A program made the translations under genes and the position numbers. This document shows, in pieces, positions 31,768 to 36,474 of a stretch of 64,000 bases of DNA. The stretch is taken from NCBI GenBank assembly GCA_024229935.1, contig JAAERX010000077.1, positions 186,001-250,000 of the forward strand, read 5' to 3'. The DNA is from Gammaproteobacteria bacterium. Its GTDB lineage: Bacteria > Pseudomonadota > Gammaproteobacteria > Steroidobacterales > GCA-2729495. Every line of letters begins with the position of its first letter. Position 1 is the stretch's first letter. The notes below the pieces were generated by a model. The model had not been told where the DNA came from. It saw nothing but the letters and a program-made list of their open reading frames with translations, and ran no database searches.

Positions 31768-32673
31768 ATGGCTAAAGACAAGGAATTAGCGATTGTATTT
31801 GCTGATGTAGTTGACAGCGCGGAGTTGTATGGAGCTCTGGGCGATGATGATGCCAGTAAGACTGTACAGCGGTGTGTAAAGTGCATGAAAGATTGCACAT
31901 CTGAGTTTGATGGCAACATTATCAAAACAATGGGTGATGAGGTTATGTCTACCTTTGCTACGGCTGATGAGGCAATGAAGGCTGCCAGTCAGATGCAACA
32001 ACGCATTACCAGTGGCAACTTATCCGGCAAAGATGATGTTCAGGTCTCAATACGCATAGGTTGCCATTTTGGCCATGTTGTCATAGAGGAAAGTGATGTT
32101 TTTGGTGCCTCTGTTTCAACTGCAAACAGGATGACATCACAAGCCAAGGCAGGGCAGATCATTACCACGGAAAGCACTATTGAACTGCTGAGCGAAGAGT
32201 GGAAGGCTGTTGTCCGTCAGATCGGTGTAGCAACTTTACGGGGCCAGATTGATGAAGTCGGCTTATATGAAGTGCTCTGGCAGCCAGAAGAAGCGACCAG
32301 TATGCTACCTAAAATGGACTGGAGCGATACTGAGGTTAAGCAACCCGGGAAGCTGTCATTAAAATTTCAGGGTGAAGAACTTTTTTTGTCCTCAGAAGGG
32401 CTTCGTAAGGTGACACTGGGGCGTGCTGATGAGAATGATGTCACGGTCAAAGGTAATCTTATTTCTCGTGTACATGCACGCATAGAACTCAATAAATCTA
32501 CTTATATGATTATTGATGAAAGTACTAACGGTACTTTTGTGCAGCGATTTGATGGCGAAGAGGTTTATGTACGCAGGGACAGTGCGCCGTTAACGGGCAG
32601 TGGTTTAATTGGTCTTGGGCGTGTAGCTGCTCAAGGGACAACACTTGCTGTTGAGTATGAGTGTGAAGAGTAG
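31768..32673 (+). CDS. Class III adenylate/guanylate cyclase domain fused to FHA domain
   Basis: IVFADVVDSAELYGALGDDDA; IIKTMGDEVMSTF; C-terminal FHA GRADENDVTVKGNLISRVHARIE...DESTNGTFV. Confidence 0.9.
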   Translation: MAKDKELAIVFADVVDSAELYGALGDDDASKTVQRCVKCMKDCTSEFDGNIIKTMGDEVMSTFATADEAMKAASQMQQRITSGNLSGKDDVQVSIRIGCHFGHVVIEESDVFGASVSTANRMTSQAKAGQIITTESTIELLSEEWKAVVRQIGVATLRGQIDEVGLYEVLWQPEEATSMLPKMDWSDTEVKQPGKLSLKFQGEELFLSSEGLRKVTLGRADENDVTVKGNLISRVHARIELNKSTYMIIDESTNGTFVQRFDGEEVYVRRDSAPLTGSGLIGLGRVAAQGTTLAVEYECEE

Positions 32674-32742
32674 TGTATTGCAGATGAGACTATAGGCTTT
32701 TTTGTTCTTACTATAGCCAATTCAGCTAGTACCTTTTCTTGT

Positions 32743-32984
32743 TCATTCTGTACAGATAAAAGTCAGATGTTCTACGCGGGCAACATCAGATGGGTTTGAA
32801 TGATGCAGGTAACTATCGGGGTAAGAATCTTCATTCAGTTCCAGTAGTTCTTCTGAGAGCAGCATTTGCTGGACACGTTTGTTGTATTTGTCCTCTGAGC
32901 TGCCGCTCCCGTACAACTGATTTGGTTTAGCCAATGCCTCTACTCATTTGCCCACTGCTGAAGGTTTTTGTTCTGCGTGCTCAT
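32743..32984 (-). pseudogene. pckG: Truncated, frameshifted N-terminal relic of phosphoenolpyruvate carboxykinase (GTP)
   Basis: Minus strand ATG at 32984: MSTQNKNLQQWANE*, then -1 shift into ALAKPNQLYGSGSSEDKYNKRVQQMLLSEELLELNEDSYPDSYLHHSNPSDVARVEHLTFICTE*; GTP-PEPCK N-terminal signature; RBS AAGGAAAC upstream. Confidence 0.88.
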
Positions 32985-33074
32985 CAGTTTCCTTGGCCTG
33001 TAAACGAACTTTTGTAGTTCAAACTATGGAGATTGCAATGATAAATCTTTGAGCCCCGGCTTCGGGGAGTGCGT

Positions 33075-33103
33075 ATTATAGAGACCGCTTCGCTTAGAGT
33101 CGT
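33075..33103 (-). promoter_or_regulatory. Candidate sigma-70 promoter of the pckG relic
   Basis: Minus strand TATAAT at 33080-33075; only a weak -35 upstream; about 90 bp before the relic ATG. Confidence 0.4.
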
Positions 33104-33247: not shown

Positions 33248-35245
33248 ATGGATTCTTTTTCAGCCAATATACCCCCATCTATAGCGGAGCTGTTTGGAGC
33301 TGCCAGCCCTTTATCGGCCTGTCTGGATGGTTTTGCTCCAAGGCCAGGTCAAGCTGCTATGGCTGAAGCTATCGCTCAGGTAATGGATGAAGGTGCCAAC
33401 TTGGTGGTTGAAGCGGGTACTGGAACGGGTAAAACGCTGGCTTATCTGATTCCGGCACTGCTATCGGGACGCAGGGTGATTTTGTCCACGGGAACAAAAA
33501 CACTCCAGGATCAGTTATTTCATCGTGATTTACCTATGGTGACAGCTGCCATTGGACGGCCTGCAAGAACTGTACAGTTAAAAGGTCGCAGTAACTATCT
33601 TTGTCTGCACCGACTGCGTGCGGTTTATGAGCAGCCACAGGCCCATCATCAGTTGGCACGCGAATTAAAGGAACTGCATAACTGGAGTCTTGCTACACGT
33701 ACTGGCGATATCGTTGAGGTGGATGGTATACAAGAAGATTCACCGGTCTGGCCGCAGGTAACCTCTACACTGGAGAATTGCCTGGGTAATCAGTGTGAGC
33801 TGTATGATAGTTGCCATGTTGTTATTGCACGCCAAGCTGCTTTGGCTGCTGACATAGTGGTGGTTAATCACCATCTGTTACTGGCAGATCTGGTGCTTAA
33901 GGATGAGGGCTTTGGTGAGTTATTGCCCGGTTGTGAGGCTGTAATTATTGATGAGGCGCACCAGTTTCCTGATATTGCACAGGGGTTTTTCAATGTTAGT
34001 CTCGGTAGCCGTCGTTTGTTTGATCTTGCCAGTGATCTGCGCAGTGAAGCATTACACGCTATGCCTGGAGATACTTTACCCGCCAGACTGGCTGATGCAC
34101 TGGTAAAGGCGGTTCGTGATGTGCGTCTGAGCCTTAGATCAGAGAACCAGGGTTCCGAGAGTATAGGTTCAGGCGGCAATAACTTAATGTGGGATCGTAT
34201 TGATGCCGGGTTCTTCCGACGACTGGATGAGTGTATAGAAGCACTGGATGACATCATTAGCTGGTTGCAGTCAGTTGATGAGTCTCTTAAGGGTTTACAG
34301 CGTTGTCGTGAGCGTGCCTGTGCAGCTGTGGATAGTATTGAACTCATTACAACAGCTGATGAGACTGCCGGTTTACGGTGGGTAGGCCTGACACGGCTGG
34401 GTTTTGTGTTGAACTATACACCTATGGAAGTAGCTGATAATTTACGAAAATTATTGGATGCACAAGCCTGTAGCTGGATATTCACATCAGCAACTCTCAC
34501 AGTTGCAGATGATTTCAGCCATTTTCTGATGCGCATGGGCCTGGAGGATCCACGTACACTTATGATTCCAAGTCCCTTTGATTTCTCCAGTTGCGGCTTA
34601 CTTTATTTGCCCCAGGGTTTACCAGAACCTGCAGATCACAGTTATACCGTCCAAATGCTTGATGAGTTACTGCCGTTATTAGATGCAAGTGAGGGCAGGG
34701 CATTCATACTGTTTACTAGTCACAGGGCCTTACGTGAGGCAGCTGGTTTATTACGCCAGCGTGATGACTTTCGTTACCCGTTGCTGGTGCAAGGAGAGGC
34801 CGCTCGATCTAAGTTACTTGAACAGTTCGCTGAACGTGAAAACCCTGTGTTGCTGGGAACCTCAAGTTTTTGGGAAGGAGTGGATATGCGTGGTGATCGG
34901 CTGGTATTGGTAGTCATTGATAAATTACCCTTTGCCTCGCCAGGCGACCCTATGTTGAAGGCAAAACTTGAGGCTATTACACGTCGTGGCGGCAAAGCTT
35001 TTAATGAGTATCAATTGCCACAGGCAGTGCTTGGTTTAAAACAGGGTGTTGGTCGGCTGATTAGAGATCATAGCGATTATGGTGTTGTTGTAATTTGTGA
35101 TCCTCGTATGACAAGTAAAGGTTATGGCAAGCGTTTTCTGGCAAGCCTGCCATCTTTTCCTGTTACACAGGATGCGGAACAGGTGATGTGTTTTTTTGAT
35201 GAATATTCTGCTAACAGCTCTGCTGGTCCTAAAGGGGGGGTCTGA
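33248..35245 (+). CDS. yoaA: ATP-dependent DNA helicase YoaA/DinG family
   Basis: FAPRPGQAAMAEAI; EAGTGTGKTLAYLIPAL; CLGNQCELYDSC; IIDEAHQ; GVGRLIRDHSDYGVVVICDPR. Confidence 0.93.
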   Translation: MDSFSANIPPSIAELFGAASPLSACLDGFAPRPGQAAMAEAIAQVMDEGANLVVEAGTGTGKTLAYLIPALLSGRRVILSTGTKTLQDQLFHRDLPMVTAAIGRPARTVQLKGRSNYLCLHRLRAVYEQPQAHHQLARELKELHNWSLATRTGDIVEVDGIQEDSPVWPQVTSTLENCLGNQCELYDSCHVVIARQAALAADIVVVNHHLLLADLVLKDEGFGELLPGCEAVIIDEAHQFPDIAQGFFNVSLGSRRLFDLASDLRSEALHAMPGDTLPARLADALVKAVRDVRLSLRSENQGSESIGSGGNNLMWDRIDAGFFRRLDECIEALDDIISWLQSVDESLKGLQRCRERACAAVDSIELITTADETAGLRWVGLTRLGFVLNYTPMEVADNLRKLLDAQACSWIFTSATLTVADDFSHFLMRMGLEDPRTLMIPSPFDFSSCGLLYLPQGLPEPADHSYTVQMLDELLPLLDASEGRAFILFTSHRALREAAGLLRQRDDFRYPLLVQGEAARSKLLEQFAERENPVLLGTSSFWEGVDMRGDRLVLVVIDKLPFASPGDPMLKAKLEAITRRGGKAFNEYQLPQAVLGLKQGVGRLIRDHSDYGVVVICDPRMTSKGYGKRFLASLPSFPVTQDAEQVMCFFDEYSANSSAGPKGGV

Positions 35246-36458: not shown

Positions 36459-36474
36459 AAAATGCAGGTCTGTT

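Follow-up and report, generated by a model that had tools for sequence, protein, structure and literature searches.

A frameshifted and truncated N-terminal part of a gene for GTP-dependent PEP carboxykinase (PckG) lies on the minus strand at positions 32743-32984 of the window, that is, the whole stretch of 64,000 nucleotides that was analysed. Very probably, the ATP-type enzyme PckA has displaced PckG in this lineage, and the stub is the non-functional, decaying relic of the ancestral GTP-PEPCK gene of the family. The window's own genome (G000) is a draft of 2.71 Mb in 189 contigs, 99.5% complete.

Sequence and position of the pckG stub

The stub and its neighbourhood comprise the following features:

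31768..32673, plus strand: cyclase-FHA gene (Guanylate_cyc and FHA domains; synteny), the convergent neighbour of pckG in relatives
32674..32742, no strand: spacer of 69 bases from the end of the cyclase-FHA gene to the stub, with the deletion junction and no recognisable pckG remnant (shuffle test)
32743..32942, minus strand: remainder of the stub, PckG codons 15-80 in a shifted frame
32943..32984, minus strand: stub codons 1-14, MSTQNKNLQQWANE, read directly and aligned to MTTQNEALQQWIEE of the intact G001 gene
33248..35245, plus strand: yoaA-type helicase gene (Helicase_C_2, DEAD; synteny), the divergent neighbour of pckG in relatives

The reading frame is as the preliminary description had given it. 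The ATG at 32984 opens 14 codons that run into an immediate stop, the frameshift lies in codon 15, and the rejoined frame continues for 65 residues, EALAKPNQLYGSGSSEDKYNKRVQQMLLSEELLELNEDSYPDSYLHHSNPSDVARVEHLTFICTE, closed by the TGA at 32743-32745. This continuation matches PEPCK_N (Pfam PF17297) with E 1.6e-11 and 44.7 bits, which exceeds the curated cut-off of 23.8 bits, and the match covers only positions 8-69 of the 218 of the profile. Solved GTP-PEPCKs were matched at E 3.8e-9, and the intact PckG of a species of the same genus (G001) was matched at E 2.6e-20 over residues 15-80. By these scores, the likeness of the stub to PckG is not due to chance. Moreover, a complete pckG of ~580 codons is located between the cyclase-FHA and yoaA-type genes in G001 and G003, both of the same genus, as well as in G009 and other family members. 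Since the stub occupies the exact position of these intact genes, it is their orthologue and, judged by sequence and synteny, a pckG pseudogene.

After the stop of the stub, ~500 PckG codons, the catalytic remainder of the gene, are missing, as had also been proposed. The profile search of the whole genome revealed no PEPCK_GTP domain (PF00821), the C-terminal catalytic part of the enzyme, either at the locus or elsewhere, and no PEPCK_N match besides the stub, and so no other pckG. The stub thus shares with functional PckG (EC 4.1.1.32; PF17297 and PF00821) a part of the N-terminal domain and the syntenic position, but it carries the frameshift, has nothing beyond residue ~80 and lacks the catalytic domain. 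The reading of NKKRY*LNWL as a further 3' remnant of pckG was not borne out. When the 69 bases past the stop were aligned with codons 81-110 of pckG from three relatives, the scores did not stand out from those of dinucleotide shuffles, as 249, 149 and 94 of 300 shuffles scored as well as the real alignments. The lone low value, obtained with the 3' end of the G003 gene (4/300 shuffles), was one of nine comparisons and is not notable after nine tries.

Three states were found at the pckG site, namely the intact gene, the stub (G000) and a scarless site. In the scarless genomes, the gap between the cyclase and yoaA-type genes is ~12 bp (G004), 39 bp (G005) or 109-121 bp (genus g8), and pckA is carried instead. 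G028 was considered as a second stub and rejected, the gene being cut by the contig end. In G042, a mosaic pckG relic (L185:1541-1801, contig C29) consists of an N-terminal part in which a fragment of codons ~287-313 is embedded. It precedes an intact pckG by ~0.6 kb and represents a partial copy in a PckG-keeping genome. G014 apparently contains two full-length divergent pckG genes (contigs C93 and C11; L186, L187), 66% and 74% identical to the G001 gene, which may reflect bin contamination or a true second copy.

Upstream of the stub, two further elements are retained:

33054-33067, minus strand: GC-rich leader hairpin CCCCG-AAGC-CGGGG, with an equivalent hairpin in G001, G003, G009, G016 and G022
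33071-33080, minus strand: putative -10-like promoter box of pckG, TATAATACGC, identical to the box upstream of intact pckG in the same genomes

The combination of TATAATACGC with a close GC-rich hairpin occurs in six genomes (window 33054-33080 and loci L003, L006, L007, L015 and L019), 122-139 bases ahead of the matched PckG start, and a broader scan found the pattern in 8 of 20 loci against 0.4 expected from shuffles. The two elements together may constitute a pckG leader element. The possibility that the leader is a structured RNA was rejected, as the Rfam search of it gave no match and its fold was no more stable than those of shuffles.

Decay of the stub

An alignment of 20 intact PckGs has 19 invariant columns; the stub breaks six of them, while intact PckGs left out one by one break 0-3. 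Compared with G001, the first codon positions of the stub differ at 29/79 and the second at 15/79, whereas in the neighbouring cyclase gene the corresponding values are 62/301 and 33/301; third positions are alike in the two genes (49/79 and 183/301 differing). Constraint is therefore relaxed in the stub, as both the broken invariant columns and the excess of differences at first and second codon positions indicate, although with 79 codons this is a rough measure. The simplest reading would be that selection maintained the gene during much of the time since its lineage separated, and that it has then been decaying for a while. The loss had been described as recent, which can be upheld in a relative sense at most, given the invariant columns already broken. 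The GC contents of the stub (0.45) and of pckA (0.48) are both close to the genome-wide value, and therefore composition provides no date.

PckA and the distribution of the two enzymes

The one PEPCK gene kept in G000, an ATP-type pckA such as the preliminary description had considered, is intact (697 bits, 536 aa). Its product, which is full length, is colinear nearly end to end with the E. coli PckA structure 1AYL (EC 4.1.1.49; PF01293; E 2.7e-275), and the P-loop and other motifs are conserved. It is located elsewhere in the genome and is the replacement, not the stub. Its identity to the PckAs of G004 and G005 is ~75%; the nearest named PckAs, from Yersinia, Idiomarina, Vibrio and Oceanimonas, each share ~73-75% identity with it, and no donor was identified among them. 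Since PckA is intact, gluconeogenic PEPCK activity has probably been kept in G000. The earlier wording, loss of a gluconeogenic enzyme, is thus correct for pckG, which this lineage has lost while the closest relatives compared keep it, but, judged by sequence, the enzymatic step itself is still represented by PckA. At the start of a G024 contig (L064:1-45), the translation CLLSRGLGDVYKRQ is unlike other PckAs and looks like adapter read-through.

Three chromosomal sites of pckA were found, namely prfC|rnr (G000, contig C51), DUF1838|GST (G004, G005; putative neighbour names, taken from reading the sequences and not from a domain search) and dsbB|dapE (genus g8). The last of these is represented in the window by an empty junction:

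36459..36474, no strand: dsbB-dapE junction, empty in the window; the same junction holds pckA in genus g8 (neighbour comparison)

This junction is without pckA in G001, G003, G004 and G009 as well. The distance between prfC and rnr is ~2.4 kb in G000 (L059, C51), with pckA between them, and ~23-27 kb in G001 and G005. The surroundings of pckA in G000 have therefore been rearranged too, and the distances point to a large rearrangement or deletion at this site.

The distribution of PckG and PckA in the sample is complementary. Among 59 relatives, 49 carry PckG only and 8 PckA only, while 2, namely G041 and the 87% complete G002, lack either form and no relative has the two together. Within the family (40 others) the corresponding numbers are 34, 5, 1 and 0, although these counts are not independent, the genomes being related. 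An overlap stage with pckG and pckA both intact, which displacement would require, was thus found in none of the 59.

Number of exchanges within the family

Five genes did not settle the position of G000 within its genus. In the 13-gene tree (4924 columns), G000 groups with the pckG-bearing G001 and G003 (support 98/98), apart from the same-genus PckA species G004 and G005, and the grouping of G000 with G004 and G005 was rejected by a modest margin (p-AU 0.034). According to this placement, there were separate losses of pckG in G000, in the line of G004 and G005 and in genus g8, unless the gene was regained at the same spot; the exchange of pckG for pckA therefore appears to have taken place at least three times in the family.

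The history of pckA itself may have involved separate gains, transfer inside the family, or a single old gain that was followed by loss and relocation. Several gains or within-family transfer are favoured because of the different pckA sites and the lack of any genome with both genes. It may be tentatively suggested that pckA moves laterally in the family, has replaced pckG on three or more occasions and never stays with it for long, which would point to selection in this lineage that favours PEP formation driven by ATP rather than GTP, or that disfavours the presence of two PEPCKs. A single ancestral gain before the split of genera g1 and g8, with long coexistence and differential loss, is a doubtful alternative that agrees with the focused PckA tree, which unites the PckAs of the family (93/99). 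It would require the loss of pckG in g8, G004/G005 and G000, the loss of pckA in G001/G003 and relocation of pckA by rearrangement. However, the three sites differ, no genome holds both genes, no trace of pckA is left in G001/G003, a wider quick tree does not join the family's PckAs, and the PckA branch of G000 is long. This history is a variant of the displacement proposed here, and the stub would be a relic in either case.

Alternative explanations of the stub

An intact pckG misassembled or misread at this place is extremely improbable. Although the genome is a draft, the contig that contains the stub is 358 kb long, the genes flanking the stub are conserved on either side, and PEPCK_GTP is found nowhere in this nearly complete genome. 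A base-call error cannot explain the ~500 codons that are gone together with the changed invariant residues, and further PckA-bearing relatives are also without pckG. A residual role of the stub or of the transcript from its promoter, as a small protein or as an antisense RNA to the convergent cyclase-FHA gene, would fit the survival of the promoter box and leader hairpin and of the still recognisable SNPSDVARVEHLTFICTE stretch. Such a role is nevertheless highly unlikely, as the frame breaks after 14 codons, change is raised at codon positions 1 and 2 with invariant residues lost, the leader shows neither an Rfam match nor unusual stability, and the promoter lies within the upstream region of yoaA, which is kept anyway.

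Displacement of pckG by pckA thus remains the preferred explanation. The lineage would have gained pckA first, between prfC and rnr, which would have made pckG redundant and enabled its loss; a frameshift would then have arisen in codon 15 of pckG and a deletion would have removed everything from codon ~81 onwards, probably in this order, and PckA would now bear the gluconeogenic flux.

Patchy exchange of isofunctional enzymes accompanied by gene losses, known as non-orthologous gene displacement, has been described for the phosphoglycerate mutases dPGM and iPGM, where species of one genus differ and one genome contains a truncated N-terminal pseudogene; whether any genome shows early stages of displacement was left open (PMC2964296). 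PckG and PckA are likewise patchy alternatives that differ within one genus, with a truncated N-terminal pseudogene, but their mutual exclusion is complete in the present sample. ATP- and GTP-PEPCK have a remote common origin (PMC8100219), and therefore they are distant homologues rather than non-homologous enzymes. With an intact alternative enzyme in G000 and no relative carrying both forms, the present case is a well-supported new instance of an already known phenomenon, isofunctional enzyme displacement. Displacement between PckG and PckA was not found in the literature searched, where only papers of a general kind came up, which is no proof that no report exists. To our knowledge, there is no explanation for the use of ATP versus GTP by PEPCKs. 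Close relatives that differ in the form of PEPCK, one of them with a relic that represents a late stage of displacement, provide natural comparisons of genomes, growth and nucleotide levels for this question.
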